Below, piece after piece: positions 1-16,340 of a stretch of 42,293 nucleotides of DNA. Under the pieces are notes generated by a model, which was not told the origin of the DNA, ran no database searches, and saw only the letters and a program-made list of their open reading frames with translations. The stretch comes from a virus: the IMG/VR virus record IMGVR_UViG_3300005613_000135, positions 1 to 42,293 of that record; one strand, written 5' to 3'. The translations under genes were made by a program, and so were the position numbers. Positions within the stretch are counted from its first letter, which is position 1. Each line of letters begins with the position of its first letter.

Positions 1-189
1 TAGTACATCTAGCACTAGCAGTAGTTCATTAACAAGTAGTAGTAGTTCCACTTCCAGTACTAGTAGTACATCTAGCACTAGCAGTAGTTCATTAACAAGT
101 AGTAGTAGTTCCACTTCCAGTACTAGTAGTACATCTAGCACTAGCAGTAGTTCATTAACAAGTAGTAGTAGTTCCACTTCCAGTACAAG
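1..189 (+). repeat. 63-bp tandem repeat, three copies, coding for Ser/Thr-rich protein
   Basis: Three head-to-tail copies (1-63, 64-126, 127-189) are nearly identical; the last differs at its 3' end. Each starts with TAGTACATCTAGCAC. The period is a multiple of three, so it keeps frame and encodes a 21-residue Ser/Thr block with one Leu. The left edge of the window cuts the array, so its full copy number is unknown. Such arrays commonly expand and contract by slippage or recombination. Confidence 0.95.
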
Positions 190-1217: not shown

Positions 1218-2710
1218 TGCCTGCTGGAAGACCTTGTTGTTGTCCTGATTATTGTGTGTATTATCCAGAATGGTCTGGTAAGGGGTATGAAGAATCTGAT
1301 TTTGAGCAGGTATTTGGTACATGGACTGTAAATAATGAAAGTATTGTTACCAACGATTCAAATGCTTTGTTAAAATGTGAGGCTGTAAATGATGAAGATG
1401 AGCACGTAGTCCAAGTTGTGTTTAATGATATTAGTTTGGGCGATCAGATAAGAGTGATAAGTAATTATAGAACTAATGCAGATTATTGGTATGGAGAATT
1501 AGAATTTGGTTTATATGGTGATGGAAGAACTAAAGTAACTTTTAGAATTGTACGTGTAGAAGGTGGTGCTCACACACAAGTAGAAGATGATGTATCATTA
1601 CCAATTGATGTATTACCAGGACCAACGGCTATTATTGAAGTAGCTTTTAGTAAAAACGTAGTTTGCTTAAACTATGGGTCTGGGGGAACTAAAACATTTC
1701 ATTATCATAATAACAGTCTAACTGACAACTGGGGAGGAGTAGGAACAGGTAATATTACGGGTCCGGTTACTTTTACTGATTTCAAATTACTCTATCATGG
1801 TGTGCGTAGAGAGGGTTGTCCTGGTTGTTTTATTCCTTTTGATCCTCCTACTTGTTTAAAAATTGTAATAAATGGTCTTACCGAAGGACCAGATTGCTTT
1901 CAAGTTCCTTGTGGTTGTTATAATGACACTTATTATTTACAAGGTGCTTTTGCTGAAATACCTGGGGCAGTAGCACCTCTTCCAGTGCGTTGGTATAAAT
2001 CTTCTAATAGTACTGGTTATTACCCTCAATGGTGCAATGAATTTCAAGAGGCTAGATACTATAAAGACGGAGATAATTACTATTTAGAAATAAAAATTAA
2101 TCCAATAGAGGATTTTCCACTTCCTGTTACTTATACTATATTTAGAGTATTAGTAGGAGATGAGGCTAATGACATTATAGATGTGGAAAATCTTAATGTT
2201 CCTTTAATAGAAAATAATGGTGCTTGTGATGCTTCTGGTGCAACTTGTGTAGTAACTGCTGTAGATGGAGATGATTGTCCCGGTTCTGATTTAGAATGTC
2301 CCGCTTGTTCTAATTGTGGACAGACCAAACCAGAAGAATATTCTATGATAATGAATGGATGGCCTGCTACTGGAAGTTTTATAAATGCTCACCTTATTAA
2401 TGGGGTTGAATTAATTGCTCAGCAATATGTAACTACACTAGGCCCTTGTTATTGGGGCACTCCTTTGTTTTACTACGATCCTGATAGTGGATTTAATTTT
2501 AGATATTTTGTAATGAGTATTCATTTTAAATGGGTTCATTTGGAGGGAGGTGGAACGGAGGTTACTATCAATGTTTCTTACGGTATCAATGACGGTTTTG
2601 GAGTCTTTACTAAAACTGTGACTGAAACAATAAATGGTCCCATTGATTGTAGATTTGAAAGAACATTTGATATGGGAGTTGGAAGGACTATTGCCGTAAA
2701 ATCATTATGA
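1217..2710 (+). CDS. Large Cys-rich beta-type virion/surface protein
   Basis: 497 residues from the ATG at 1217, which overlaps the previous stop as TAATG. An in-frame ATG at 1193 would add eight residues. It opens with MPAGRPCCC. A first domain (about residues 25-210) is rich in beta-strand patterns, Gly and aromatic residues. A CPGC linker leads to a second domain (about 215-340) with Cys pairs, and a third (about 360-497) follows a CPACSNCG motif. No signal peptide, transmembrane segment or enzyme motif is visible. The modular Cys/aromatic beta composition fits a receptor-binding or decoration protein; that is inference. The last 4 nt overlap the next start (ATGA). Confidence 0.75.
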   Translation: MPAGRPCCCPDYCVYYPEWSGKGYEESDFEQVFGTWTVNNESIVTNDSNALLKCEAVNDEDEHVVQVVFNDISLGDQIRVISNYRTNADYWYGELEFGLYGDGRTKVTFRIVRVEGGAHTQVEDDVSLPIDVLPGPTAIIEVAFSKNVVCLNYGSGGTKTFHYHNNSLTDNWGGVGTGNITGPVTFTDFKLLYHGVRREGCPGCFIPFDPPTCLKIVINGLTEGPDCFQVPCGCYNDTYYLQGAFAEIPGAVAPLPVRWYKSSNSTGYYPQWCNEFQEARYYKDGDNYYLEIKINPIEDFPLPVTYTIFRVLVGDEANDIIDVENLNVPLIENNGACDASGATCVVTAVDGDDCPGSDLECPACSNCGQTKPEEYSMIMNGWPATGSFINAHLINGVELIAQQYVTTLGPCYWGTPLFYYDPDSGFNFRYFVMSIHFKWVHLEGGGTEVTINVSYGINDGFGVFTKTVTETINGPIDCRFERTFDMGVGRTIAVKSL

Positions 2711-2949
2711 GACAAAGATTGTGTAAATTTGAATCAACAGAACTTGGTAAAGGTAAATGTACTGTTTGTGGTTATGAGTACAAGGGACCACCTTGGCCCA
2801 TTAGAGCTTGTCCAGGAAAAGGAAAGTCTAGAGGTTTAGGAGACACAATAGCAAAACTAACTTCTGCTGTTGGAATTAAACCCTGTGGTGGTTGTAAAAA
2901 AAGACAAAAGAAATTTAATGAGATGTTTCCTTATAATAAGAAGTCGTAA
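2707..2949 (+). CDS. Small basic CxxC protein
   Basis: 80 residues, Lys/Gly-rich, with CTVCGY near the N-terminus and a C-terminal core GLGDTIAKLTSAVGIKPCGG followed by CKKRQ. The core looks like a short conserved segment that recurs near phage structural genes, but I cannot name the family. The ATGA overlap couples it to the upstream protein. A 70-nt gap with no obvious terminator separates it from the glycan cassette. Confidence 0.7.
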   Translation: MRQRLCKFESTELGKGKCTVCGYEYKGPPWPIRACPGKGKSRGLGDTIAKLTSAVGIKPCGGCKKRQKKFNEMFPYNKKS

Positions 2950-3019: not shown

Positions 3020-4072
3020 ATGACAGCAGAACATTGTGTTTATTTTGGTGACGACACTGGAAAGAAAGAAAATGATCTTCCAGTACACAAATGCAGAATA
3101 CATGAATTCTGCATTAATAGTAAAAGTAATGCAAAAGTAGCTGGATGTGAAGAGTGTAAAGACAAGCTTCAATTGGATGATCCTGAATTTTCTAAAAAGT
3201 GGCTTGATCCTCTGATTGTCACAGACCGATTTAAAAAGCCTACAGAGGTGCTTAGGAACCTTCTGGCTGGCAGGAGTACATTCCTAGCTGGGGGTGGTCC
3301 CTCTACGAACGAGCAGCCCCTAGAGGAATTAAATGAACGTGGTATGTGGACGTTGGCTATCAACAACATGGCAGGGCATGCCAGATTGAAACCGCAAGCG
3401 TTCGTTTGTTCTGATCCTCCTAAAAAGTTCTCCAGTAGCATTTGGCTTGATCCTGGGATAATGAAATTTATTCCTTCTCCTAAGCTATCTGGTGGACGTT
3501 CTGCTTTAAGAAAAAAAGTAGGAAAAGATAAATTTGAGTCTATAAAGGAAAGGACTGCTGATTGTCCTAATGTATGGGGATTCCAAAGAAACAGTTGGTT
3601 GTTGCCTAATAATGATTTTTTCTTAGAAGATGGGGCCTCTTGGGGTAATTTACAAAAGGGAGTTGATAAAACAGGACAGCCAAAAACCGTTTGTACTATG
3701 CTGTTGGGTATTAGGTTGCTATATTACTTAGGAGCTAGGAGAATATATTTAATAGGCTGTGATTTTAGAATGGCAGATGGATATGGTTATTCCTTTGGAC
3801 AAGGAAGAACATCAGGAGCATGTAATTCTAATAATTCTCAATATGGTATAGTAGCTAATTGGTTACAGCAGTTACAAGATAATGGTATTTTTAGTAAATT
3901 CGGATTAGAAATATATAACTGCTTTGAAAAATCTTCTCTTAGAGCTTTTCCTTACGTTCCATTTTGTAATGCCGTGGATGACGTTAGAGGAGAAGTAGAA
4001 GTAGAACCGGATTTAGAAGGTTGGTATGAGAAGAAAGATAATAAAAAGAAAAAAAGGAGAAGTAGAAGATGA
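3020..4072 (+). CDS. DUF115/MptE-like Rossmann-fold protein (possible glycan transferase)
   Basis: 350 residues. The segment FLAGGGPST (about residues 91-99) is the glycine-rich nucleotide-binding loop typical of DUF115 / 6-hydroxymethylpterin diphosphokinase-like proteins. LIGCDFRM (about 243-250) matches the second conserved strand of the same fold. DUF115 proteins occur in flagellin-glycosylation (Maf-type) and capsule loci, and the fold resembles sialyltransferases. An N-terminal extension carries six Cys/His (residues 5-50), possibly a metal-binding appendage. The C-terminus is very basic. It is the first gene of the glycan cassette. Bases about 3241-3420 are unusually GC-rich compared with the rest of the gene. 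Confidence 0.6.
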   Translation: MTAEHCVYFGDDTGKKENDLPVHKCRIHEFCINSKSNAKVAGCEECKDKLQLDDPEFSKKWLDPLIVTDRFKKPTEVLRNLLAGRSTFLAGGGPSTNEQPLEELNERGMWTLAINNMAGHARLKPQAFVCSDPPKKFSSSIWLDPGIMKFIPSPKLSGGRSALRKKVGKDKFESIKERTADCPNVWGFQRNSWLLPNNDFFLEDGASWGNLQKGVDKTGQPKTVCTMLLGIRLLYYLGARRIYLIGCDFRMADGYGYSFGQGRTSGACNSNNSQYGIVANWLQQLQDNGIFSKFGLEIYNCFEKSSLRAFPYVPFCNAVDDVRGEVEVEPDLEGWYEKKDNKKKKRRSRR

Positions 4073-4446
4073 AATTTGAATGGGAAGAGAAGGTATGGGG
4101 TAGAGTTGTTCACATTTTTCAATCTGCTAGTGCTGCTGTAAGTTTTTTAGAAGTAAATAAAGGTTTCCAATGCTCTAGACATTACCATAACTTTAGAGCA
4201 AATCAATTTTCAGTTATAAGTGGTCATATTTGTATAGAGGTATGGGTAGGAGAAAAGGATTATAGAAGTATTAATTTACATTCTGGTGAGACTTATGTAG
4301 TTCCCAGTGGACGTGTACATAGATTTAACGTAATTGAATCTGGAAGTATGATTGAAGTATACTGGCCGGATAAGGAAAATAATTACGTTTCTATTTCGGA
4401 TATAGAAAGAATAGATACAGGTGGTCTTATAGAGGATCAAAAATGA
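4069..4446 (+). CDS. Cupin protein, mannose-6-phosphate isomerase type II-like
   Basis: 125 residues forming one cupin beta-barrel. Motif 1 is RHYHNFRANQFSVISG (about residues 37-52), and motif 2 is VVPSGRVHRF (about 76-85). Pairs of His with Gln/Glu would bind a metal. The spacing matches the C-terminal cupin of bifunctional mannose-1-phosphate guanylyltransferase / mannose-6-phosphate isomerase or stand-alone sugar-binding cupins. It likely acts on a sugar or sugar nucleotide in the surrounding pathway; the exact substrate is not readable. ATGA overlaps tie it to both neighbours. Confidence 0.75.
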   Translation: MKFEWEEKVWGRVVHIFQSASAAVSFLEVNKGFQCSRHYHNFRANQFSVISGHICIEVWVGEKDYRSINLHSGETYVVPSGRVHRFNVIESGSMIEVYWPDKENNYVSISDIERIDTGGLIEDQK

Positions 4447-5237
4447 ATGTACCTGATTACACTTTAGTAATAGGTGTAGACAAAAAACATTTAAGGCAAT
4501 TAATTCAGGTATGGCCTACTTTTATAAAACATAAACCTTCATTACTAAAACAACCTATGGTTGTTTTCTATGATAAATATGAAGTTAATCCTACATATAT
4601 ATATGAATATGTAAAACATCCTAATATACGTACTCATAAATGGCCTATAGATAATATAGAGTATGAAGGACAGGCTGATAGTAAATGGACTAATCCACAA
4701 AGATATAAGATGTTAGCTGGATTTGTTCATGTACCTAGTATGTGTGTAGAAACAGATTATTGGTTGAAACTAGATACTGATACTGTTGCTACAGGAAATG
4801 ATGATTGGATAGATTCAAAATGGTTTGAAGGTAGTCCTGCTATAATCTCTCAAAGATGGGGATTTACTAAACCAGCAAATCAAATGCTATTATTAGATGC
4901 TTGGGTTAAAGAAAACAAAGAATTACTTTCAGAAATGGATCAATCTAGTCCATTAAATTTAACACCAAATGAAGGTTCTAGTAGATTAAATCATAAGAGA
5001 ATCATTTCTTGGTGTTCTTTTTTCAATACAGCTTTTACGACTACTTGTTCTGATTTTGCAAATAGAACTTGTGGATGGTATAAATTACCTGTTCCTTCCC
5101 AAGATGGTTACGTATGGTACTTAGCTAAAAGAATGAATAAGAGAATAGTAACTACTAATATGAAAGCAAGAGGATTCAAACACCGAAATACTGAGAGAAA
5201 TATAAAACAGGCCATAAGTGAGTCTTTATATGCTTAG
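4443..5237 (+). CDS. GT-A type glycosyltransferase
   Basis: 264 residues. A short N-terminal beta-alpha unit is followed by WLKLDTDTVATG (DxD near residue 110), the metal and nucleotide-sugar binding signature of GT-A transferases. A conserved-looking segment (SKWFEGSPAIISQRWG) lies after it. There is no membrane segment, so it probably works in the cytoplasm. The donor and acceptor are not predictable. Start and stop overlap neighbours (ATGA upstream; the FkbM start lies inside its 3' end). Confidence 0.75.
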   Translation: MNVPDYTLVIGVDKKHLRQLIQVWPTFIKHKPSLLKQPMVVFYDKYEVNPTYIYEYVKHPNIRTHKWPIDNIEYEGQADSKWTNPQRYKMLAGFVHVPSMCVETDYWLKLDTDTVATGNDDWIDSKWFEGSPAIISQRWGFTKPANQMLLLDAWVKENKELLSEMDQSSPLNLTPNEGSSRLNHKRIISWCSFFNTAFTTTCSDFANRTCGWYKLPVPSQDGYVWYLAKRMNKRIVTTNMKARGFKHRNTERNIKQAISESLYA

Positions 5238-5931
5238 TAGAGCGAAAAGAAGAAGTGGTATTGCTTTTTGTAAGATAATGGAATTATTAAATTGGAAGCC
5301 AAATACAATATTTCAAGTTGGTGTAGGTATTTACTTTGGAGAAACAATAGAGTTTTTAAAATGTTGGCCTGATGTTAAATTAATAGGTTTTGAGCCCAAT
5401 TCTTTGATTGTTGAAACTGTTAAAGATGAATATCCTGGTACTATATTGCCCTATGCTATAAGTAACAAAAATGGAAGTTGTACTTTATACAACAAGAAAA
5501 AACACAAAGATGGTTCTTCCTTATTTAAGCATTTGAAACATCATGACATAGAAAAGTATGGAGAGGAACAAGTTGAAGTAAAATTATTAGACTCCCTTTT
5601 TCCTAATCCAGAAAGATATGGGGATATAGTACTTTGGTTAGATTGTGAAGGAAGTGAATTAGATGTATTAGAAGGTAGTGAAAACTTTGTAAAATATGTT
5701 GGTGTTATTAATGTAGAAATGACAGCAAAACCTATGTTGGAGAACCAATGTGATACAGTTTCTTTACATAATAGGATAACTGATTTAGGATACAAAAAAC
5801 AATGGATACATACACAAAGATCAAGCCAAGGTCAATATGATTCCATTTATGTAAAGGATAATCTATTTGATCCAGAACATTGTTGTTGTCCTTTTACTAT
5901 AGAGAAATATAGAAAAAATAAAGAATCATGA
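5230..5931 (+). CDS. FkbM-family SAM methyltransferase
   Basis: 233 residues from the ATG at 5230; a GTG at 5218 would add four. The N-terminal SAM motif I reads FQVGVGIYFGETIEF, followed by LIGFEPN (acidic end of strand 2). The C-terminal FkbM signature is LWLDCEGSELDVLEG with VINVEM after it. FkbM enzymes O-methylate sugars or polyketides, so sugar O-methylation fits here. The start is embedded in the 3' end of the glycosyltransferase gene and the stop overlaps the sulfotransferase start. Confidence 0.85.
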   Translation: MLSRAKRRSGIAFCKIMELLNWKPNTIFQVGVGIYFGETIEFLKCWPDVKLIGFEPNSLIVETVKDEYPGTILPYAISNKNGSCTLYNKKKHKDGSSLFKHLKHHDIEKYGEEQVEVKLLDSLFPNPERYGDIVLWLDCEGSELDVLEGSENFVKYVGVINVEMTAKPMLENQCDTVSLHNRITDLGYKKQWIHTQRSSQGQYDSIYVKDNLFDPEHCCCPFTIEKYRKNKES

Positions 5932-6524
5932 GATGTTCTATTTTTGAGATAGGTTTGGGTAGAAATGGTTCTAGAAGTATATGCAGGGCTGTTAAATTAT
6001 TAGGATTGAAAACTAGACACGGTTTTGATAATAAATTTGAATTAAGACAAGATGCTGTAAAGAAGTTTCTAAGTGGTTCTTATAGGTTTAATTTGTATAA
6101 TGATTGTGATTACTGTGGGGATATACCTGTAATACATTGGAAAACTTTATTTGAAAACGAACCAAATGCTAAATTTGTTTTGCCTATAAGACCTATAGAT
6201 AGTTGGATTTCTTCTTTGTTACATGCAGATACAAGTATTAGTAATAAAAAGTTAGAAGATATTTTCAATGAAGGAACAGTAAACTGGCGTCATATTTTTA
6301 GATTACATTGTTTTGGCACAATAAGATATGAAGTAGATTTGATAAAACAAAAATATATTGAACATACAATAGAAGTGACCAATACAATAACAGATGATAG
6401 ATTATTAGTATTAGATATTTTTAGTATGAAAAGCAAAGTTGTTTGGCAAAAACTTTGTTGGTTTCTAAAAACAGATGTACCTGATATTGAATTTCCACAT
6501 GTTGGAAAAGGAGGAAGGGCTTGA
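5928..6524 (+). CDS. P-loop sulfotransferase (1 of 3)
   Basis: 198 residues. The N-terminal loop IFEIGLGRNGSRSICRA (about residues 4-20) occupies the 5'-phosphosulfate-binding (PSB) position of PAPS sulfotransferases. KFVLPIRPIDSWISSL (about 84-99) matches the 3'-phosphate-binding strand-helix. Family members move sulfate from PAPS to a hydroxyl of a sugar or other acceptor. No PAPS synthesis gene is visible in the window, so the donor would come from the host. The short length suggests a minimal catalytic domain. ATGA and TTGA overlaps join it to both neighbours. Confidence 0.75.
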   Translation: MRCSIFEIGLGRNGSRSICRAVKLLGLKTRHGFDNKFELRQDAVKKFLSGSYRFNLYNDCDYCGDIPVIHWKTLFENEPNAKFVLPIRPIDSWISSLLHADTSISNKKLEDIFNEGTVNWRHIFRLHCFGTIRYEVDLIKQKYIEHTIEVTNTITDDRLLVLDIFSMKSKVVWQKLCWFLKTDVPDIEFPHVGKGGRA

Positions 6525-7396
6525 AAAGGCAAGTTACTTACTTGATGAGTGGACAAGCACATTTACCTTACTTAGTGGTTAGTCTTGATACATTAAGAAG
6601 ATATTGGAAGGAAGATATAGTTGTTTATGCTTGGCCCGAATCTTTTGATATTGTAGAAGAAATAGCAAGGGATAAAAATCTAAACATAAAATGTTATAAA
6701 AGAGAACCTTCTTATAGAGGTAAAAATGCACAGTTTTTAGATAAAATAGAATTAACACAATCATTGGATTGTGGTATTTCTATGTATTTAGATGCAGACA
6801 CTTCCGTACATGGAAGCATAGAAGTACTGTTCGATAGAGGGCTTCAATTTGGTTTTGCTGCTACACAGTTCAATGAGTGGCTTACAGGTCCAAAGGGAGT
6901 TGTAGCGGCTAGAGTGAAACGTCTTAAGGATCACAAAAAAATAGAACAAGTATATGTAAAAGAGATACTTAAAAATAGATGGCCCAGTGTAAACGGGGGT
7001 GTGTGGACAGCCAGACCAAATTCTGAAGTACTTCCTTTATGGTATGAATGGACGATGATTGCTAGGAAGATATTTATAGCTGATGAAACAGTACTGCATG
7101 TACTACAACCGAAATATATTCCTTTGCACAAAATGACAGTAGTTTGTGAAAATGGAAAATATAATAGTTCTCCTAAACACAAGTCACCTAATATTCCTCA
7201 TGAAGATGTATCTATATATCATTATCACGGAGATAGTAATGTACGTCCTCAAAAGACAGAAAGAGGATTAGAATTATGGTGGCCTATGTATATGGATTGT
7301 ATACGTAGAAATGTAGGAAGTATTTCAAAATGGCACACAGAAGTTAGAAATAAATGGATAGACAAATTGTTAAAAGAGAGAAATATGTATGTTTGA
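6521..7396 (+). CDS. GT-A type glycosyltransferase
   Basis: 291 residues from a TTG start that overlaps the previous stop (TTGA). The strand MYLDADTSVHGSI carries the DxD motif at about residues 89-91. FAATQFNEWL and NGGVWTARPNS resemble the acceptor-side motifs of glycosyltransferases that act on nucleotide sugars. A C-terminal HYHGDSN segment supplies another His cluster often seen as a metal ligand in such enzymes. No transmembrane segment. It is the second of three GT-A-like enzymes in the cassette and shares little obvious identity with the first. Confidence 0.75.
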   Translation: MKRQVTYLMSGQAHLPYLVVSLDTLRRYWKEDIVVYAWPESFDIVEEIARDKNLNIKCYKREPSYRGKNAQFLDKIELTQSLDCGISMYLDADTSVHGSIEVLFDRGLQFGFAATQFNEWLTGPKGVVAARVKRLKDHKKIEQVYVKEILKNRWPSVNGGVWTARPNSEVLPLWYEWTMIARKIFIADETVLHVLQPKYIPLHKMTVVCENGKYNSSPKHKSPNIPHEDVSIYHYHGDSNVRPQKTERGLELWWPMYMDCIRRNVGSISKWHTEVRNKWIDKLLKERNMYV

Positions 7397-8099
7397 AGAC
7401 ATTCCAAGGGTTACTTTAGAATTATCTAATCTTTGTAACTATTCTGAAAAACACACTAAATGTCCTACAGGAAGAACAGATGAGGTATGTATTCTTCCTT
7501 TATCTATAATAAAAAGTGTTATAACCGATTTGAAAATTTCCAATTGGGGAAATAATAGGACTATTTGTTTTCATGTTTATAATGAACCAACAATAGATCC
7601 TAGATTGTACTGGTTAATTGAATATGTTTGTAAAGAATTACCTAGTATAAAACCCTTACTGTTTACCAATGGATGGTATATGAATGAAAATCTGATGAAG
7701 GAATTATTTAATATTGGCTTGGATAAAATGTTGATTACTCTGTATACTAACAGAGAAACAGAAAAATTAGTTCCTTTATCTAAGAAATTTCCAGGCATAT
7801 CTTTTCATAAGGCTGTGCTTAAAGACTCTTTGTTGAATCCAGGTGATGGTCCTCCTTTTTATAAAAGATGTCATGCTCCTCTATGTGATTTAACTATAAG
7901 GTCTAGTGGTAATGTTGGTCTTTGTTGTTTAGATTATGATGAAACAGTTGTTTTTGGTAATTTATATAAAGATAGTCTTTTAGATGTAATGTTTAGGGAA
8001 TACAAAAAGATGAAAAGGTTAAGGGATCGTCTTACAAGAAGAAAAAGGGATTTACCTGTATGTAAGCTTTGTTATCGTAGAAGAATAGAGCATAAATAG
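7389..8099 (+). CDS. Radical SAM/SPASM-like protein with non-canonical cluster motif
   Basis: 236 residues. The N-terminal VTLELSNLCNYS is where radical SAM proteins place CxxxCxxC, but here the visible ligands are C16, H22 and C25 (C-x5-H-x2-C). The barrel continues with FHVYNEPTIDP and LLFTNGW, both typical of radical SAM/SPASM proteins. The C-terminal part has Cys pairs and SSGNVGLCCLDYDE followed by VFGNLYKDSLLDV, a good SPASM auxiliary-cluster pattern, then a final CKLC. The role in the glycan pathway is unknown; sugar or peptide modification is possible. The ATG overlaps the upstream stop. Confidence 0.7.
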   Translation: MFEDIPRVTLELSNLCNYSEKHTKCPTGRTDEVCILPLSIIKSVITDLKISNWGNNRTICFHVYNEPTIDPRLYWLIEYVCKELPSIKPLLFTNGWYMNENLMKELFNIGLDKMLITLYTNRETEKLVPLSKKFPGISFHKAVLKDSLLNPGDGPPFYKRCHAPLCDLTIRSSGNVGLCCLDYDETVVFGNLYKDSLLDVMFREYKKMKRLRDRLTRRKRDLPVCKLCYRRRIEHK

Positions 8100-8113
8100 G
8101 AGTATATACTATT

Positions 8114-8737
8114 ATGAAATCAGTAGGCATAGATAGATCACAACATAATTTTGATTTCACCAGAAGGTGGTTTTTGAATAGAAATGCCTCTACCTTTTGC
8201 AAGTACATATTACCTAAATGGAAAGACAAAAAATTAATATATCTTGAATTAGGTGTGTTTGAAGGAATGTCAATGGTATGGATGATGCAAAATATATTGA
8301 CTCATCCAGAATCCTATGCAGTAGGAATAGATCCTTGGTTAATTACTAGAAAATTACTTGGAAATGTAATGGAACAAGTTATGGAAAGGGCTTTCCATAA
8401 TACAAAATGTTTTCCTAATTGCAAATTGATAAGAGGCAGTAGTGTAGAAGTTCTTAACAGAATGCGGGGAAAAAAGGGATTTGAAGGCATAAAGAAAAAT
8501 ACTGTAGACTTATGTATGATTGACGGAGATCATAATAGTTTGGGGGTGTTAAGTGATTGTTATGCCTGTTATAATCTTATAAAAACAGGTGGTTGGATGT
8601 TATTTGATGATGTAGAAAATAGAATAGAAAAGAAAGATCATGTAAAGCAAGGTTTAAGTAGATTTTTAGAAGAATATGAAGGAAAGGTAAAAATGATTTG
8701 GAAACACAACTTTATGGAATGTTATGAAAAATTATGA
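8114..8737 (+). CDS. Class I SAM-dependent methyltransferase
   Basis: 207 residues. Motif I is YLELGVFEGMSMVWM, strand 2 ends in AVGIDPW, and LCMIDGDHN plus GGWMLFDDV are the conserved strand 4 and 5 segments of the Methyltransf_24 type, which includes sugar and macrocin O-methyltransferase-like proteins. A Shine-Dalgarno AGGAG lies at 8098-8102. It stands apart from the tandem pair at 10.2-11.4 kb in sequence but shares the same fold and the IDGDH/IDANH-type signature. Confidence 0.75.
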   Translation: MKSVGIDRSQHNFDFTRRWFLNRNASTFCKYILPKWKDKKLIYLELGVFEGMSMVWMMQNILTHPESYAVGIDPWLITRKLLGNVMEQVMERAFHNTKCFPNCKLIRGSSVEVLNRMRGKKGFEGIKKNTVDLCMIDGDHNSLGVLSDCYACYNLIKTGGWMLFDDVENRIEKKDHVKQGLSRFLEEYEGKVKMIWKHNFMECYEKL

Positions 8738-8779
8738 CAATTCTTTTATATTTATTTAATAACCCAAGAAGGTGTACTA

Positions 8780-9415
8780 ATGCAATTAAAAGTATACGAT
8801 GATTATTATAAGTATGTACGTTCACAGCAAAAGACCGTACATAGGAGGGGCATAGCTTGTTATTTTACAGATGTAGAAATACAAAAAATATGTGAGTGGA
8901 TAAAAGCAAAAGGTATAGAACCTCTAAAAGCTGTTTGTCATGGAGCTAGGAATGGGGCAGAAGCGGATGAATTTGTAAGCAATTTTCCAGGGTTGGAAGC
9001 TTTTGGAACTGATTTATTTCCTTATTCTGGACGCAGTGTAAAAATAAAGACCAATTCTAAAGTAATAGAACACGATTTTTCTAAAGAAGTGAAGGAATGG
9101 AAAGATTCTTTTGATATTGTTTATACAAATAGTTTAGATCATGCAAGATACCCTGAAAAAACTTTGCGTGTTTGGTTAGATCAATTAACGGCAAATGGGT
9201 TTTTATTTGTACAATGGACTTCTGGGCATGTGATAGCAAGTGGAGGGGATTGTTTTGGAGCTACATTATATGAGTATATACAATTGATAAATTCTGTAGG
9301 TACAGTTGTTGATTTAATATACAACAAATCGCCTTATATGAAACACAATAATAGAAGAAGAAGGGCTTTAGAATCTATTGTTGTTGTAGGATGTAAAGAT
9401 GACAAGAAAAGCTAG
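8780..9415 (+). CDS. Class I SAM methyltransferase-like protein
   Basis: 211 residues. The segment AVCHGARNGAEADEF replaces the usual GxGxG loop. GTDLFPYSG and FDIVYTNSLDHARYPEKTL follow the pattern of Methyltransf_11-type enzymes, the latter normally reading NSLEHV. The deviating glycine loop makes SAM binding less certain than for its neighbours. A Shine-Dalgarno AAGGTG lies 7 nt before the ATG. The 3' end overlaps the GSCFA gene by 17 nt. Confidence 0.65.
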   Translation: MQLKVYDDYYKYVRSQQKTVHRRGIACYFTDVEIQKICEWIKAKGIEPLKAVCHGARNGAEADEFVSNFPGLEAFGTDLFPYSGRSVKIKTNSKVIEHDFSKEVKEWKDSFDIVYTNSLDHARYPEKTLRVWLDQLTANGFLFVQWTSGHVIASGGDCFGATLYEYIQLINSVGTVVDLIYNKSPYMKHNNRRRRALESIVVVGCKDDKKS

Positions 9416-10244
9416 AAGATTAAGGTTTTATAAAAAGGGTTTGTTTATAAAATCTAAAAAACATTCGTTGATCAATAAGGACTCTAAAATATTAACAATA
9501 GGAAGTTGTTTTGCTTTAGAACTAAGAAAATGGCTTACGAACAATGGTTACAATGCCTTTGAGCAAGATAAGTATGAATTGATTTGGTATAATACTTATA
9601 CCATTCTTTATGAGTTTGCAAGAATAGTTAATAAATGGAAACAAAAAGACAAAGACATATGGCAATTATCAGATGGTAGATGGCAAGATCCATACAGAAG
9701 GTGTGTATTTTCAGACACTAAAATAGAATTACTATTAGAAATAAGAAGACTGGATAATATTTTAGGAGAAGCTATAAAAAGTTCTAATGTAATTATTATT
9801 ACATTGGGACTAACAGAAGTATTTGTAAAAAGAGACGGAAATGTTATTTGTGGTGTTCCTGGATATTGTGGTGGGGGAGGACACGATTGCTCTTTTTTAG
9901 CTAGTAATTATGTACAGAATTACGAAAATATAAAGAAAGTTGTAGAATATCTAGCAGAAGTTAATCCAACTTGTAATTTAGTCTTGACGGTATCTCCGGT
10001 TCCTTTCTTTGCTACTTTTAGAGAATTAGATCATTTAGTGGCTAACACAGCTAGCAAATCTATATTAAGGGCTGTAGCTGATGAAATAACTAAAAATTGT
10101 AATAATGTGTATTACTTTCATAGTTACGAAATGGTAGCTTGTGAAGACAGACAGAATGTATACAAACCAGATGGAAGGCATATCAGATCCAGTTACGTAA
10201 AAAAAATAATGGGTGAATTTGAAAGGTTTTTTATAGAAAAATGA
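9399..10244 (+). CDS. GSCFA-domain SGNH-type hydrolase
   Basis: 281 residues. ILTIGSCFALELRKWL (about residues 30-45) is the family-defining GSCFA motif carrying the candidate nucleophilic Ser. VIIITLGLTEVF supplies the block with a conserved Gly, and the C-terminal YKPDGRHIR gives the Asp-x-x-His pair expected for an SGNH catalytic dyad. Family members are presumed esterases/acyl hydrolases, some tied to surface polysaccharides. A role in de-acylating or acyl-transferring the glycan is inference. Overlap with both neighbours indicates coupled translation. Confidence 0.75.
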   Translation: MTRKARRLRFYKKGLFIKSKKHSLINKDSKILTIGSCFALELRKWLTNNGYNAFEQDKYELIWYNTYTILYEFARIVNKWKQKDKDIWQLSDGRWQDPYRRCVFSDTKIELLLEIRRLDNILGEAIKSSNVIIITLGLTEVFVKRDGNVICGVPGYCGGGGHDCSFLASNYVQNYENIKKVVEYLAEVNPTCNLVLTVSPVPFFATFRELDHLVANTASKSILRAVADEITKNCNNVYYFHSYEMVACEDRQNVYKPDGRHIRSSYVKKIMGEFERFFIEK

Positions 10245-10795
10245 AAACACATTCAAGATCGTTAGTAGGTATAATAAAAGAAAATAATGAGAATCCTAAA
10301 ATAGGATGTGAAGTGGGTGTATGGGAAGGGGGCAATAGTACAAGTCTACTTAAATCATTTAGTGATTTACATTTGATAATGGTGGATCGTTATGGATTGT
10401 TAACTAAGAAAGAAAAAAGATCGGATAGACGATTAGCAAGGAAAACACAAGATGAGATGTATGAAGCTATGCTGGTAGCTTTGAAAAGGACTGAACCATT
10501 TTGTAATAGAAGGACTGTTTTAGTAGGTAATTCTTTAGATTGCTCTTTTCTTGTTAAAGACAATTTACTTGATTTCATATTTATAGATGCTAATCACACT
10601 TATGAGTCTGTAAAGATAGATATAAATACTTGGTATAGTAAAGTGAAAAGTGGAGGAATATTGTCCGGTCATGATTACAGAAGTTCTGGTAGAAAAGCTG
10701 GTGTAAAAAAAGCTGTGTTAGAGTTTGCAAAACAAATAGATATAGAAAAGGTTGAAACTGCTCCTGGTTTAGTTTGGTGGTTTATAAAGAAATGA
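10241..10795 (+). CDS. Class I SAM methyltransferase (tandem paralogue A)
   Basis: 184 residues. GCEVGVWEGGNSTSLL is motif I, MVDRYGL ends strand 2, DFIFIDANHTYESVKIDI is the strand-4 signature, and GGILSGHDY marks strand 5. These are hallmarks of Methyltransf_24-type enzymes. The next gene is a clear paralogue with the same motifs in the same order. The GHDY near the end may bind a divalent metal, as in related O-methyltransferases. The ATGA overlap with the GSCFA gene suggests co-translation. Confidence 0.8.
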   Translation: MKTHSRSLVGIIKENNENPKIGCEVGVWEGGNSTSLLKSFSDLHLIMVDRYGLLTKKEKRSDRRLARKTQDEMYEAMLVALKRTEPFCNRRTVLVGNSLDCSFLVKDNLLDFIFIDANHTYESVKIDINTWYSKVKSGGILSGHDYRSSGRKAGVKKAVLEFAKQIDIEKVETAPGLVWWFIKK

Positions 10796-11361
10796 AAAGG
10801 GAAAGTTTTTCTCCTACAGAAGTTTTAATAGAGTTGATAAAGGATCATATAGGTGTTCCTAAATTAGGATGTGAAATAGGTGTTTGGAAGGCTAAGAATG
10901 CCTGTTTACTTTTAAAGGAATTTACTGGACTTCATTTGTTATTAGTTGATCGTTATAAAGTATATGATGAGGAAGAAAAGAAGCATTCAAGAGTATGTGG
11001 AAGAGTAAATCAAAATGATATGTATAGGATATTGAAAAATAGTATCTCTAGGACTAGAAAAATATCTACTCCAAGTATTTTTATGATAAGCGATTCTACT
11101 TTGCCAATTGATATAATAGAGAATGAACAATTTGACTATGTATTTATAGATGCTAACCATACATATGAAACAGTTAGTAAAGACTTATTAAATTGGATAC
11201 CAAAGGTAAGACTTGGGGGTTTGGTTTGTGGTCATGATTATGGTGGAGGACGAAACAAAAGAGGATTTTTCGGAGTGACTAAGGCGGTAAACGACTATGC
11301 ATTAAAACACGGTATAAAAATAAAGGAATCACCTGCCTGTATTTGGAGTTTTGTGAAGTGA
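10792..11361 (+). CDS. Class I SAM methyltransferase (tandem paralogue B)
   Basis: 189 residues from the ATG at 10792, which overlaps the previous TGA; an in-frame GTG at 10774 is less likely. Motifs match paralogue A: GCEIGVWKAKNACLLL, LVDRYK, YVFIDANHTYETVSKDL, GGLVCGHDY. Retention of two diverged copies side by side suggests duplication followed by specialisation, for example for two hydroxyls or two sugars. Confidence 0.8.
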   Translation: MKRESFSPTEVLIELIKDHIGVPKLGCEIGVWKAKNACLLLKEFTGLHLLLVDRYKVYDEEEKKHSRVCGRVNQNDMYRILKNSISRTRKISTPSIFMISDSTLPIDIIENEQFDYVFIDANHTYETVSKDLLNWIPKVRLGGLVCGHDYGGGRNKRGFFGVTKAVNDYALKHGIKIKESPACIWSFVK

Positions 11362-11900
11362 TTGATTATGGTTCTTTTCTATTTGCTTGTCCACCTAGAA
11401 CTGGTACAACATGGTTTGTAAAAGCTTGTCAATTGGTTGGGTTGGGTGTAGGTTTTACGGACAAAGCCCACACACCTTTCTGTTGTAAAAAAGATTGCAA
11501 TATAAAAATCTCACTAGTAAGACATCCTTGTAATTGGATAACAAGTTGTTACTCAGCAGTAGTTAATAAAGATCCTTGTTATTTATTTTTAGGACCATTT
11601 ACTTGTTTGGACACAACTTCTTTGAATTCATTTGTAAGGGATTATTTAAATAAGTTCCCAGGTTATATAAGTATACTGTTTTCAAAGTATAAAGCGGATA
11701 CTTATATGCGATTAGAAGATATGCCTTGGGCTTTCATAGAATTTGCTGAATCTTTGGGGTCTGGTTTGTATAATATAGACTTATGTAGAAACTTAAAAAA
11801 ACAAAATGTAACTGAGACTTTATATTTTATGAAACCTGAATATAGAGACAAATTAAGGGAGTCCGATCGGTTATTATATGACACTTACGATTATTACTGA
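11358..11900 (+). CDS. P-loop sulfotransferase (2 of 3)
   Basis: 180 residues from the GTG at 11358, which overlaps the upstream TGA (GTGA). FACPPRTGTTWFVKA (about residues 9-23) is a strong PAPS 5'-phosphosulfate loop. KISLVRHPCNWITSCYS (about 53-69) is the 3'-phosphate motif with the conserved Arg and downstream Ser. The rest is short, as in bacterial and phage minimal sulfotransferases. It presumably sulfates a glycan component made by the neighbouring enzymes. Confidence 0.8.
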   Translation: MIDYGSFLFACPPRTGTTWFVKACQLVGLGVGFTDKAHTPFCCKKDCNIKISLVRHPCNWITSCYSAVVNKDPCYLFLGPFTCLDTTSLNSFVRDYLNKFPGYISILFSKYKADTYMRLEDMPWAFIEFAESLGSGLYNIDLCRNLKKQNVTETLYFMKPEYRDKLRESDRLLYDTYDYY

Positions 11901-11909
11901 GGCACTAAC

Positions 11910-12638
11910 ATGAAATCATATATCATTATTCCTGCTAGAATGGAAAGTGAAAGACTTCCTAATAAACCTCTATTGGAAATGAATGGTAAACCTTTATTGC
12001 AATGGACACATGAAAGAGCTTTACAAGTAGGGGCTGATAATGTTTTAGTTACTACACCAGACCAAGAGATTATTAATTTTTGCAATAAGAACAACATGGA
12101 ATGCTATGAGTCAAGTTATGATAATCCTACAGGAACTCACAGATGTGCTGAGATTATTTTTAGGTTAGAAATTGAACAGGAAAATGATATACAAAATGAA
12201 AATGAACGAACAGTAATAGTGAATTGGCAATGTGATGAACCTCTTATTGAGCCAGATGATGTTTTTAAATTAATGAATGCAGTGGATTTGTTTTTTGATA
12301 TAGGGACGTTAGTAGCTCCATTATGGCCTGGTTTGATGGAGGATAGAAACATTACTAAAGCAATAGTAGGTAAAAACGCGATTGCTCATTGGTTTACCAG
12401 AACTCCTACTAATTATGCCAAAGGACATATAGGTATTTACGCATTTCGACAACCCACTTTGAAGAAACTAAAGAAATTACGTGTTACCGAACTTAGTAAA
12501 CAAGAATCTTTAGAACAATTAACATGGATAGAAAATGGATTTACTATTGGTTCTATAGGAACAAAAGAAATGCCCTTATCCATAAATTGTCCTGAAGATA
12601 TTGAATTATTTAATGAGTTGCACAATGCCAGCTTGTAG
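11910..12638 (+). CDS. kdsB: 3-deoxy-manno-octulosonate cytidylyltransferase-like (KdsB-type)
   Basis: 242 residues, close to the usual ~250 for KdsB. IIIPARMESERLPNKPLLEM is the CTP-binding N-terminal signature. DNPTGTHRCAEI aligns with the sugar-recognition block (usually SGTERxAEV), and VNWQCDEPLIEP aligns with VNxQGDEPxI, with Cys replacing Gly. KdsB makes CMP-Kdo from CTP and Kdo. Related CMP-sugar synthetases use other ulosonates, so the substrate here could be a Kdo-like acidic sugar. It has its own Shine-Dalgarno (GAGG at 11899-11902). Confidence 0.85.
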   Translation: MKSYIIIPARMESERLPNKPLLEMNGKPLLQWTHERALQVGADNVLVTTPDQEIINFCNKNNMECYESSYDNPTGTHRCAEIIFRLEIEQENDIQNENERTVIVNWQCDEPLIEPDDVFKLMNAVDLFFDIGTLVAPLWPGLMEDRNITKAIVGKNAIAHWFTRTPTNYAKGHIGIYAFRQPTLKKLKKLRVTELSKQESLEQLTWIENGFTIGSIGTKEMPLSINCPEDIELFNELHNASL

Positions 12639-12693
12639 TAAATGCAAATAATTTTTATTTTGAGTATGTAGGAAAGTAGAAGGTAGTTTTTAT

Positions 12694-13446
12694 ATGATAA
12701 AAGTGGAATTAGTAAGTCATTGTTATTCTGCTGTTTTTTCACATTATGCCAGTGCTCTTTGTTATCAATTGAGTTCTTTTATTTTGTATAGACAAAGGTA
12801 TCCTTCAAATATAGAAGTAGTAGCTACAATATGTTGTACAAAAGAAGACATTAGGACCAGAAAAGTATTGGCTTGGTATGATTTAGAAAGATTAAAATAC
12901 CATGGACTTTCACTTAATGTCTATTATTTAGAACCTAGCTTTTTAGGACGTAGAGCTATTGGAAGAAATATAGTAGCCAAGAAAAGTAAATCAGATATTG
13001 TCTGGTTTGCTGATGTAGATCAGGTTTATAAGAATGGTTGTTTAGATGATTTGGCAGAAATGGATTGGCCTAGAGATTCTGTAATGGTATATCCAAAGAA
13101 AATAAAAATACACAAGGATCATGCTATAGGAGATAAAGCTACATCACTTGTAGAAAATGATCCTAAGTTAGTGGATATAAATATAGATGATTTTGTAGAC
13201 AAACGATATGGAAAGGCTATTGGTGGAGTACAAATAGTCCAAGGTGATTTCGCTAGAAAACATGGTTATTTACAAAACAACCATAAATGGCAAAAACCCA
13301 CAAATGGTGAATTTGTTGCCTGCAGATGTGATATTCCATATAGACGTTATTGTAAAGAATATGGAGAAATAACTGGTATTGATTTACTTGGAATGTACCG
13401 TATCAGGCATACGGAAGCTGCACATGGAAGACCTCCAAAGGTATAA
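12694..13446 (+). CDS. GT-A type glycosyltransferase
   Basis: 250 residues. The N-terminal HCYSAVFSHYASALCYQL is followed by a beta-alpha segment. IVWFADVDQVYKNGCLDD (about residues 103-120) carries a D-x-D metal-binding motif. A later GGVQIVQGDFARKHGY fits the acceptor side of family 2-like or phage-type glycosyltransferases. No membrane helix. A leader of 55 nt with SD-like AGAAGGT precedes the ATG. Confidence 0.7.
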   Translation: MIKVELVSHCYSAVFSHYASALCYQLSSFILYRQRYPSNIEVVATICCTKEDIRTRKVLAWYDLERLKYHGLSLNVYYLEPSFLGRRAIGRNIVAKKSKSDIVWFADVDQVYKNGCLDDLAEMDWPRDSVMVYPKKIKIHKDHAIGDKATSLVENDPKLVDINIDDFVDKRYGKAIGGVQIVQGDFARKHGYLQNNHKWQKPTNGEFVACRCDIPYRRYCKEYGEITGIDLLGMYRIRHTEAAHGRPPKV

Positions 13447-13448
13447 CA

Positions 13449-14153
13449 ATGTCTGCACTAATAAAACAAAATAGGGTTTTGTTTTTACACATACCAAGAA
13501 CTGGTGGGACTTGGGTAAAAAAAGCTATAAATTTGTTGGAAATACCGGTAACTAATTATAATGTCAGATTTCAAATTTATATTGCTAAGAAACATGGCTT
13601 ATTAGCTCATATTAGACGTCCTTTTAGAGCTAGAATTGACAGTACTTTTTGTTTTGTAAGACATCCTATAACTTTTTATGAATCTGTTTGGAAATATATA
13701 ATTACTACAGATTATAATGGTAAAAGATATATAAAATTATCTAATAAATGGAGATGGCATCCACTTACTAAAGCTGTTGAACAGTACAAGCAATTAGCTA
13801 ATGATAAAAGAAATAAGGAAATAGATTTTAATGATTGGGTTACGTTAATGTTGTGTAATGAACCTATGTGGTGTACAAGATTAATGGAACAATATATAGG
13901 ACCAGAAGGAGGTGAGTTTTGTAAATTCATAGGAAGAACTGAAACACTTTCAAATGATTTTGTAGAAGCTCTTAATTTCTTTAGAATAAAAACGAACGTA
14001 GATTTAAGTGTATTAAATACACTAAAAAAACAAAACACAAGAGAAGGTGTTATTAGATGGGATGAGGATGTTAAGTCTTTTGTTTTAGACACAGAAAGAC
14101 TTTTTATAAGACGTTTTTACGATAGCAATAAAGATAAGCGTATTTATGTTTAA
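13449..14153 (+). CDS. P-loop sulfotransferase (3 of 3)
   Basis: 234 residues. LFLHIPRTGGTWVKKA (about residues 11-26) is the PAPS-binding loop with the HIPRTGGT form found in Sulfotransfer_2-type enzymes. STFCFVRHPITFYESVWKYI (about 59-78) is the 3'-phosphate motif. LKKQNTREG near the C-terminus resembles the K/R-N basic patch that contacts the nucleotide. It is the longest and most canonical of the three. The next ATG starts inside its 3' end. Confidence 0.8.
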   Translation: MSALIKQNRVLFLHIPRTGGTWVKKAINLLEIPVTNYNVRFQIYIAKKHGLLAHIRRPFRARIDSTFCFVRHPITFYESVWKYIITTDYNGKRYIKLSNKWRWHPLTKAVEQYKQLANDKRNKEIDFNDWVTLMLCNEPMWCTRLMEQYIGPEGGEFCKFIGRTETLSNDFVEALNFFRIKTNVDLSVLNTLKKQNTREGVIRWDEDVKSFVLDTERLFIRRFYDSNKDKRIYV

Positions 14154-14439
14154 CTGGCTTAAAAATATAATACGTAATTGGCTAGAGGAAGATGAATTAA
14201 ATTTCGATTTGGAATGTATTATTTGGGAAGAAAATACTACTAAATTTATTAACTATAATATAATTGGAAGCAATGGGGTATATTTAATAGGAGTTCCCAT
14301 AAATGAAAAAGCTGGTTGTCGTATGATAAGGATAGAGGAAGCTAAGAATAAAAAGCAATTTACTAAGCTATGGATGCACTTTTGTAAAGACAAACAAGTT
14401 ACTTGGGAAGACGGTACTCCTTATGTTCCTAATCGATAG
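14146..14439 (+). CDS. Hypothetical protein
   Basis: 97 residues with an amphipathic N-terminus (MFNWLKNIIRNWLEED) and no recognisable motif. It overlaps the upstream sulfotransferase by 8 nt. Its 3' end runs 19 nt into the convergent epimerase gene. It is the last plus-strand gene of the glycan cassette. Confidence 0.6.
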   Translation: MFNWLKNIIRNWLEEDELNFDLECIIWEENTTKFINYNIIGSNGVYLIGVPINEKAGCRMIRIEEAKNKKQFTKLWMHFCKDKQVTWEDGTPYVPNR

Positions 14440-15377
14440 GACTTGTACCAATTAGTAAATTTCTCTAAGCCTATTTCTATTGATGTACAAGGTCCAAACC
14501 CTACTTGTTTTATAGTTTCTTTCATATCTGCATAAGTAACTAACATCTCTCCTGGTTGCATAGGAATCATTATTTTCTCTGCCTTCTTACCTAAATATTT
14601 TTCAAGCAGAGAAATCATATGTAGTAAATGAATTGGTTTATTATTACCTATATTAAATACGCTGCAAGTTTCTTCTACATCCAATAAACCAATTGTTATC
14701 TTTACCGCATCATCTATGTAGGTAAAATCTCTTTTCATTTCACCTTTATTATGAATGTAAATTGGGATGTCATTCGTAATAGCCTCAGAGAACAAAAATA
14801 TAGACATATCAGGTCTACCCCAAGGACCGTATACTGTGAAGTAGCGTATGCCTGTGGTTTTCAATCCGTACAGATGAGAATAAGAATAAGCCATTAGCTC
14901 ATTCGATTTCTTAGTAGCTGCATAAAGATTGATTGGGGCATTTGTATTATCTTCTATGGAAAAGGGAATATCTGCATTTCTACCATAGACGGAACTGGAA
15001 GAAGCATAAATGAATTGCTTTACTTTGTACTGTCTACACAACTCTAAGATATTTCCGAAACCCAGTAGGTTTGTAGTAAAGTACTCGTAAGGATGATCGA
15101 ATGAATGACATACACCTGCTTGTGCTGCTAAATGAATTACTACCTCTGGTTTTTCATAGTTAAATATAGGTACTAATAAATCCCCATTATTTATATCTCG
15201 TTTTGTAAAAAGAAATCTTTGTTGATTTTGTAATTGTTTTAACCTATCATATTTCAGATGAGGTGAATAATAATCATTTAGATTATCAATTCCAATTACA
15301 CTATGACCTTGTTTCAGTAATTGTTTGGTAACATGGAAACCAATAAAACCCGCTGCACCAGTTACAATTATTTTCAT
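14421..15377 (-). CDS. UDP-glucuronate 4-epimerase-like NAD-dependent epimerase
   Basis: 318 residues on the minus strand, the only clear minus-strand gene in the window. The Rossmann NAD loop is VTGAAGFIGFHV (residues 5-16). The catalytic Y-x3-K is YAATK (Y152, K156), preceded by YASSSSVYG. IRYFTVYGPWGRPDMSIFLF is characteristic of the UDP-glucuronate 4-epimerase subgroup (CapI/LpsL type), which makes UDP-galacturonate. It would supply an acidic sugar donor to the cassette. AAGGAG lies upstream of its ATG, and a good sigma-70-type promoter lies further upstream. It converges on, and overlaps by 19 nt, the gene ending at 14439. Confidence 0.9.
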   Translation of the reverse strand: MKIIVTGAAGFIGFHVTKQLLKQGHSVIGIDNLNDYYSPHLKYDRLKQLQNQQRFLFTKRDINNGDLLVPIFNYEKPEVVIHLAAQAGVCHSFDHPYEYFTTNLLGFGNILELCRQYKVKQFIYASSSSVYGRNADIPFSIEDNTNAPINLYAATKKSNELMAYSYSHLYGLKTTGIRYFTVYGPWGRPDMSIFLFSEAITNDIPIYIHNKGEMKRDFTYIDDAVKITIGLLDVEETCSVFNIGNNKPIHLLHMISLLEKYLGKKAEKIMIPMQPGEMLVTYADMKETIKQVGFGPCTSIEIGLEKFTNWYKSYRLGT

Positions 15378-15777: not shown

Positions 15778-15814
15778 GCCTCTAGTAGGTTGCAGCCTAC
15801 TAGGGGCATTTTTA
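15778..15814 (+). terminator. Rho-independent terminator
   Basis: A 12-bp stem (15778-15789 with 15796-15807, one G-T pair) closes a 6-nt loop and is followed by CATTTTTAG. It ends the structured RNA and lies just before the SD (GGGAGAGG) of the sigma-like gene. It could either release a small RNA or attenuate transcription into the next operon. Confidence 0.8.
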
Positions 15815-15833: not shown

Positions 15834-16340
15834 ATGCTTACTTGTGCAGAAACGTACAATAGTGTAGAGCCTTTACTTAAAAGGATTTGCTGTAACTACA
15901 TTACTAAGTACGGAGGTGATTTTGAAGAGTATTTTTCCGTAGCCAACGAAAGTTACATGAAAGCTTATGATAAGTATGTTCCTAATAAAGGAGCGTTTTC
16001 CACATTTCTATGGAGGGTAGTTTGGAATTCATTACTAGATGAATCCAGAAAGAAAACCAGATTGAAACGTACTATGATTACTTATAATAGTATTGCAGTA
16101 GAAGATTATCAGGATACTAAACAAGATACTTTTTTAGTATTAACCAAGGGATTATCCAAAGATGCTTGCAAAGTGGTCGAATTACTAATGGACAGTGGGG
16201 ACGAAATTGCTAAAGTATTAGATTTGAAGGGAAAACCTTCAGCATTTAATTACATAAGGAAATGCTGTATGGATATAGGTTGGTCTGTAAGGCAGGTCAC
16301 AGAAGCTTTTATTGAGATCCAGAAATTTGTAGGCAGATGA
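15834..16340 (+). CDS. Sigma-70-like transcription factor
   Basis: 168 residues with a strong SD (GGGAGAGGAAAG). NKGAFSTFLWRVVWNSLLDE followed by SRKKTR (about residues 52-77) matches sigma region 2 (the F-x-T-W/F-x-x-x-x-x-N-x-x-D/R-x-R pattern that binds core polymerase and the -10 element). The C-terminal third (about 115-165) is helical and could be a diverged region 4. It probably redirects host polymerase to phage promoters. A structured leader and terminator lie immediately upstream, so its own expression may be attenuated. Confidence 0.7.
   Translation: MLTCAETYNSVEPLLKRICCNYITKYGGDFEEYFSVANESYMKAYDKYVPNKGAFSTFLWRVVWNSLLDESRKKTRLKRTMITYNSIAVEDYQDTKQDTFLVLTKGLSKDACKVVELLMDSGDEIAKVLDLKGKPSAFNYIRKCCMDIGWSVRQVTEAFIEIQKFVGR

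Follow-up and report, generated by a model that had tools for sequence, protein, structure and literature searches.

The DNA analysed here (the window) is the 42,293-base IMG/VR virus record IMGVR_UViG_3300005613_000135, which probably represents about half of a phage genome, because the contigs of its relatives reach 80–100 kb. Positions 3020–15377 carry a cassette of glycan genes, in which an earlier note, made from the sequence alone, had listed three GT-A glycosyltransferases (GTs), three sulfotransferases, five methyltransferases and several other enzymes. All of the named genes are present, and most are supported at the level of family or fold by profile, fold or motif; most of the motifs also survived profile or fold searches. 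Genes are designated below by their start coordinate in the window (e.g., 3020, 4443) and lie on the plus strand unless stated otherwise, and the frequency of each family is given as the number of related phage contigs, out of 50, that carry it. The cassette was described as nearly all translationally coupled, and 11 of the 16 plus-strand junctions indeed overlap, while two more are 2–9 bp apart. The relevant unit is larger than the cassette, since it extends upstream to serine-rich structural genes at 2–2949.

The first gene of the cassette, 3020 (3020..4072; 46/50), encodes a 350-aa protein which the earlier note had called DUF115-like, and which turned out to be the most conserved gene of the block; three of the four contigs in which it was missed are cut just upstream. 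The AlphaFold model of 3020 (pLDDT 90.9) has a sialyltransferase fold. The top 19 matches in the fold search were all sialyltransferases, with CstII as the best PDB match (E 1.8e-4, probability 1.00, TM-score 0.50 by target length), followed by CstI and mammalian enzymes, and the sequence profile also reaches CstII. (The top PDB sequence match, a designed TIM barrel, was rejected as a repeat artefact.) Within the family, GPS, NN and Y-x-F are fully conserved as motifs and GxDF almost fully; GPS, GxDF and Y-x-F are common to the GT42 enzymes CstI/CstII of Campylobacter. In contrast to the latter, with which identity is only ∼12%, the column aligned to the catalytic His188 of CstII, in a region of weak alignment, holds mostly Gln (Gln 15, His 5, Leu 1; Gln in the window), and CstII acts on glycan acceptors. 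In Maf (motility associated factor) proteins, the central domain, pfam01973, resembles CstII (PMC11339370). Given this likeness, the CstII-like fold and sub-threshold matches to PF01973 (MptE/Maf; 15.3 bits for 3020 and 27.3 bits for its best homologue, gathering cut-off 34.6), 3020 is called Maf-like without being filed as a Maf. It leaves no room for the flanking domains of the three-domain Maf architecture, and its neighbours are tail genes, not a flagellin gene. We propose it as the initiating enzyme.

The remaining core consists of a cupin (4069..4446; PF07883, E 1.8e-6; 44/50) and the three predicted GT-A enzymes. Gene 6521 (6521..7396; 42/50) is GT8-like, with a profile that reaches glycogenins (E 0.014), and its fused homologue in the bacterial locus L050 matches PF01501. 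Gene 12694 (12694..13446; 39/50) is GT2-like and reaches chondroitin synthase and other GT2 enzymes (E 2.4e-5). For 4443 (4443..5237; 48/50) no database profile match was obtained; it is assigned as a putative GT-A transferase by its invariant DxD motif and a weak profile match to 6521.

The family was opened by a search with the KdsB-like protein of the cassette (11910), which identified three phage contigs carrying the cassette, with 30–55% identity for most of the proteins that they share with it. Single-protein scans with 3020 and 5928 gave no matches, the patterns being too specific, while a search with a 3020 alignment recovered 24 loci, and an independent scan with 4443 recovered 49, including 26 previously unseen contigs. 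In total, the four core transferases (3020, 4443, 6521, 12694) and the cupin were found in about 45 uncultured phage contigs. The five core families have an identical order and strand in 28/28 dereplicated contigs holding all five. Wherever the upstream sequence is long enough, the cassette lies directly 3′ of genes for the tape measure and fibre-like proteins. By Megablast and tblastn, annotated phages gave no relatives of 3020, 4443, 6521 or 13449. With none of the three core transferases searched (3020, 4443, 6521) matched in the 50,697 phage records, annotation based on isolates misses the system. A distant version of the cassette was observed on contigs of 161, 476 and 296 kb (L118, L120, L121, L132); L132, from the 476-kb contig, carries several serine-rich proteins.

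The composition and position of this core bear on two readings in which the virion is not the target. DNA-hypermodifying phage glycosyltransferases are known (cited in PMC12619734), and the transferases could in principle decorate the bases of the phage DNA. This is highly improbable, given that the genes lie in the tail module, that 3020 has a fold of the sialyltransferase type, and that thymidylate-synthase-family genes, which provide one route to a hydroxymethylated base and the sole base-modification route checked, occur in 1/20 records, several of them fragments. That the enzymes instead make a soluble compound, acidic or sulfated, which has no part in virion structure (auxiliary metabolism or a secreted product) is very unlikely: radical SAM proteins, cupins and methyltransferases do occur in natural-product pathways, but the core consists of transferases without synthases, and its order and its place beside the tail genes are conserved.

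The genes between and behind the core transferases are predicted to decorate the glycan. Each of the three predicted sulfotransferases, of the PAPS type, is supported by different evidence: 5928 (5928..6524; 5/50) by Pfam (PF17784, E 1.4e-24), 11343 (11343..11900; 34/50) by fold, and 13449 (13449..14153; 11/50) by profile homology to 11343 (E 1e-15). Gene 11343 has no sequence-profile support; its AlphaFold model has a pLDDT of 90.2 and, among the listed top PDB fold matches, all are sulfotransferases. It carries PPRTGTTW as the 5′-phosphosulfate-binding (5′-PSB) loop, SLVRHP, and a 3′-phosphate motif in the stretch SLVRHPCNWITS, although the 5′-PSB loop is degraded in some relatives (L005, L008). 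The corresponding motifs of 13449 are HIPRTGGTW and VRHPITFYES (RHP...S 3′-phosphate motif), and this protein weakly matches a phage galactose-3-O-sulfotransferase family; for neither 11343 nor 13449 did profile searches of the PDB yield meaningful matches. Apart from the window, the full set of three sulfotransferases is limited to L005, L091 and L103 (3/50). The glycan pathway described in the earlier note is supported in its phage linkage, acidic-sugar cytidylyltransferase, methylation and sulfation, but not in triple sulfation as its defining trait.

Four of the five methyltransferases pass the Pfam cut-offs. These are the FkbM-type 5218 (5218..5931; PF05050, E 1.3e-10, with TIGR01444 also above cut-off; 27/50) and three Methyltransf_24 proteins, 8114 (8114..8737; E 1.1e-14; 22/50), 10241 (10241..10795; E 2.6e-13; family in 36/50) and its paralogue 10774 (10774..11361; E 2.2e-12). 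The fifth, the methyltransferase-like 8780 (8780..9415; Methyltransf_12, E 9e-4; 16/50), falls below. Gene 9399 (9399..10244) encodes a GSCFA-family protein, a probable esterase (PF08885, E 4.3e-43), found in 1/20 records, i.e., in the window only and in none of 19 related ones. The radical SAM prediction for 7389 (7389..8099; 1/50) holds for its SPASM domain (PF13186, E 2.3e-10); the Radical_SAM match is below cut-off and the cluster region, CNYSEKHTKC, is CX8C in place of CX3CX2C. The nearest annotated-phage match of 7389 is only 26%. The nucleotide-sugar 4-epimerase (14421..15377, minus strand; PF01370, E 5.8e-53; 2/50) is probably of the UDP-glucuronate type, as the earlier note had it, but is convergent with the operon and lies outside it. 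Its nearest PDB matches are 5u4q (named dTDP-glucose 4,6-dehydratase; E 2e-104) and 6zl6 (E 1.9e-53), and no NCBIfam cut-off was reached. The plus-strand cassette ends with a small protein (14146..14439) with homologues in 7 contigs. Because the order of the core is constant and the presence of the other genes uneven, we conclude that the core is fixed while the decoration turns over, with the GSCFA, radical SAM and epimerase genes nearly private to the window contig.

The donor sugar is suggested by 11910 (11910..12638; PF02348, E 1.4e-31; 25/50), a KdsB-like cytidine monophosphate (CMP)-sugar synthetase. All of its 13 PDB matches are KdsB (best 3oam over residues 4–235, E 1.2e-25), while the NCBIfam equivalog and subfamily cut-offs were not reached (best 174.6 bits versus 193; TIGR00466, 109.4 versus 155.2). 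The Asp of the VDTPED motif is the second metal-binding Asp of the KdsB synthetases that make CMP-activated 3-deoxy-D-manno-oct-2-ulosonic acid (Kdo); the site reads SINCPED in the window, where this Asp is missing, and SVDTPED in L002. A cytidylyltransferase is present in 13/20 large records. A strict partnership of KdsB and 3020 was considered and is weakened by the other seven, which have 3020 but no such enzyme; in these, the donor must come from the host or be a different one. In L019, a second CTP_transf_3-family protein (8742-9434; NeuA-like by eye) lies directly 5′ of the cassette and hints at donor variation.

The first 3 kb of the window resemble the end of a tail module. The window starts inside an open reading frame (ORF; 2..796), of which its edge leaves only the part for the C-terminus of a Ser/Thr-rich virion protein. 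This protein, the proposed acceptor, reaches 95% Ser/Thr over 60 residues; the DNA contains a 63-bp tandem repeat at 1-198, and L009 has a similar ORF at the matching position. In the window, the ORF is followed by genes for a small Cys-containing tail-end protein (798..1217), with homologues directly 5′ of 3020 in 7 contigs, a Cys-rich, probably fibre-like protein (1193..2710), with distant homologues directly 5′ of the cassette in L010, L016 and L017, and a small Cys-rich protein (2707..2949; phrog_32048, E 1.7e-12).

To examine the association with serine-rich proteins, we took the 33 dereplicated cassette contigs whose upstream sequence spans 6 kb or more, and scored an ORF as serine-rich if Ser and Thr made up 45% or more of a 60-residue stretch. 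Such an ORF was found within the flank in 25/33 contigs. All seven extendable contigs of the remaining eight have serine-rich ORFs farther out, and the eighth (L023) ends at the neighbouring tail gene; Ser/Thr-rich ORFs are thus present in all 32 of the 33 cassette contigs that allowed the check. The rate was 35/726 ORFs in the cassette contigs, compared to 0/267 in regions of lambda, T5, HK97, T1 and S-SCSM2R, a modest control of five isolate phage regions. The tracts are often C-terminal, with 30/46 complete ORFs ending at most 30 residues from the tract. When loci were searched by a conserved neighbouring tail protein instead of the cassette, a serine-rich ORF ended just upstream in 62/66. 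Short contigs ending soon after the tail genes without a 3020 match were not counted as absence, so that only the 62-kb record L198 was counted, cautiously: it has no 3020 match and no serine-rich match in the stretch examined, and its orthologous tail protein (1506-2102) ends in only nine serines. In L198, the fibre genes are followed by a different ORF (10759-11859), glycosyltransferase-like by eye.

The position of the cassette directly 3′ of fibre-like genes, Cys-rich ones included, would also be expected if glycosylation fell mainly on other structural proteins (capsid, tail tube or the Cys-rich fibre), with the serine tracts as co-occurring flexible linkers. In mycobacteriophages, it is the subunits of the capsid and tail tube that bear the glycans (cited in PMC12619734). 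We regard this alternative as unlikely, given the shorter serine tail in the sole contig without 3020 (L198) and the occurrence of cellular 3020 homologues near serine-rich ORFs that are not tail genes.

Such cellular homologues were found in 8/294 Planctomycetota and 2/289 Verrucomicrobiota genomes sampled, and others came from a scan of the whole collection. A serine-rich ORF lies at most 10 kb from the 3020 homologue, often adjacent, in 8/12 genomes versus 0/18 control regions (Fisher p 8.5e-5); the latter, again a modest set, were drawn from five of the 12 genomes and scored at an equal Ser/Thr threshold. In L029, a serine-rich RHS-type protein is divergent from a longer 3020 homologue, while several of the other cellular loci resemble prophage tail regions and encode tape-measure proteins (L047, L052). 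Four planctomycete genomes (L046-L049) have a common prophage-like tail region with a serine-rich putative fibre and a distant 3020 homologue; these regions often carry a further glycosyltransferase and could be prophages or domesticated tails. The verrucomicrobial 3020 homologues near serine-rich proteins are ∼630 aa long (L029 3374-11476; L054 5062-11552), and their extra C-terminal region is 2OG-Fe(II) oxygenase-like by eye, although Pfam did not recognise it.

In a tree of 3020 sequences, the 38 cassette-phage members form one clade without cellular members (support 96/95), while the distant L116, L118 and L120 group with cellular sequences. Taken together with the cellular homologues, the tree points to a planctomycete or verrucomicrobial host as likely, though not proven. 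The same clade contradicts an ordinary bacterial capsule locus, a possibility raised in the earlier note, as well as one recently captured by the phage or binned with it. Single genes were probably acquired recently, as illustrated by the epimerase, which is very close to bacterial enzymes and nearly absent from the relatives; for the block as a whole, however, with tail and replication genes on its two sides, such an origin is hardly tenable.

The earlier note had left undecided whether the glycan modifies the virion surface or the host envelope. No membrane segments were predicted in any cassette protein, and this, with the linkage to serine-rich tail proteins, favours the virion. Remodelling of lipopolysaccharide, S-layer or capsule in the infected cell, e.g., to exclude other phages, has some appeal: Kdo is a host envelope sugar, seroconversion by phage glycosyltransferases is known, and L050 contains a chromosomal cluster with homologues of all four core transferases. 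It is nevertheless rather improbable, as a block without membrane segments has no flippase, polymerase or polyprenyl-phosphate transferase, and the cassette follows serine-rich structural genes in the tail module and is not placed with the early genes.

We therefore consider it probable that the block acts as a module for O-glycosylation of the virion and that its acidic, methylated and sulfated decoration is variable. O-glycosylation of the serine tracts is the simplest reading because, until assembly, the tail proteins and the enzymes, which have no predicted membrane segments, are together in the host cytoplasm. The acceptor, donor sugar, order of steps and biological role that we infer are as follows. 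Kdo or a related acidic ulosonic sugar would first be activated with CMP, either by the KdsB-like 11910 of the phage or by the host, and 3020 would then link it to Ser/Thr residues of the tail proteins, within their serine-rich tracts and C-terminal tails. The transfer would take place in the cytoplasm before assembly, where the tail proteins and soluble enzymes meet. The glycan would then be extended by 4443, 6521 and 12694 and variably decorated by the methyltransferases and sulfotransferases, in this phage also by the GSCFA, radical SAM and epimerase products. The outcome would be a negatively charged, brush-like tail coat with quickly diversifying chemistry, plausibly serving in binding to the host surface or in shielding; stiffness is another candidate function.

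Several observations weigh against this reading. The column of the catalytic His of CstII is Gln in most 3020 members, including that of the window, and the PF01973 score is below cut-off. The donor may not be made by the phage, as seven of the 20 large records have 3020 without a cytidylyltransferase. Some of the cellular serine-rich ORFs lie several kb from the 3020 homologue, and the comparison without a cassette is a single contig, L198, which is possibly incomplete. Finally, serine-rich tails may be an ancestral trait of the lineage that merely co-occurs with the cassette, so that contigs within the lineage are not independent; the cellular cases and L198 weigh more than this co-occurrence.

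The proposed module has partial counterparts among known systems. As in phage virion glycosylation systems, the transferases are encoded with virion genes. Published Maf proteins act in the cytoplasm on Ser/Thr of a filament protein with CMP-activated ulosonic acids including Kdo, and can transfer N-acetylneuraminic acid and Kdo to flagellin (PMC11339370). In both cases, the catalytic domain is CstII-like and the gene is linked to a structural protein; 3020 differs in having no extra domains, in its sub-threshold PF01973 match, in its linkage to tail genes and not flagellin, and in lying beside further transferases and decorating enzymes. In mycobacteriophages, phage transferases modify the C-termini of capsid and tail-tube proteins (Freeman et al. 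2023, as cited in PMC12619734), whereas serine-rich tails, an acidic sugar activator, and methyl- and sulfotransferases are found here. The Synechococcus phage (cyanophage) S-SCSM2R encodes KdsA/KdsB, many glycosyltransferases, a radical SAM protein, a sulfotransferase and epimerases in one genome, but its KdsB is only 25.5% identical, its gene order is unlike that of the cassette, and it has no core-family match and no serine-rich ORF in the stretch examined. The long serine-rich tracts of the serine-rich repeat glycoproteins of Gram-positive bacteria are glycosylated stepwise by linked transferases. Here, neither GtfA/GtfB nor accessory Sec genes were seen, and we propose another initiating enzyme as well as acidic and sulfated decoration. 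Literature searches on sulfotransferase-bearing or planctomycete phages returned nothing specific, and no description of sulfated phage glycoproteins was found in the literature searched.

On its other side, the block is followed by the replication genes (15.8 kb onward). A terminator-like hairpin, detected by a consensus scan only (15778..15807, plus strand; 13 pairs, then a T run), sits in the gap between the epimerase gene and that of a sigma-70-like factor (15834..16340, plus strand; PF04542, E 2.3e-12), the first gene of the replication side, which is conserved 3′ of the cassette in the relatives. The window further encodes an SNF2-type helicase, primase, DnaB-like helicase, sliding clamp, clamp loader, single-stranded DNA-binding protein, UvsX-like recombinase, exonuclease and a divided DNA polymerase. 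The two parts of the latter, ORFs 27141-28334 and 33022-34398, correspond to phrog_17 profile positions 477-825 and 835-1236, and are separated by ∼4.7 kb of other ORFs, among them a 765-aa ORF (28265-30562) with an HNH-endonuclease-like N-terminus and a helicase-like region.

A more far-reaching version of the proposal is tentative and would go somewhat beyond what we consider probable: a mucin-like viral O-glycosylation system, in which Maf-type direct transfer of a CMP-activated ulosonate to dedicated C-terminal serine tails of tail proteins is combined with a sulfated acidic brush, built by a conserved three-transferase core and variable sulfo- and methyltransferases. Such a system would be widespread in an uncultured lineage of Planctomycetota/Verrucomicrobiota phages, would extend to some jumbo phages, and would have cellular versions that target serine-rich RHS-type proteins. 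If the proposed mechanism is true, scattered hints of phage virion glycosylation would become a defined pathway with candidates for the enzyme, donor and acceptor, in a phage lineage that has no isolates in the collections searched. In phages and bacteria alike, a Maf/sialyltransferase-fold family is linked to serine-rich tails by this work, and the mechanism predicts the existence of sulfated phage glycoproteins.

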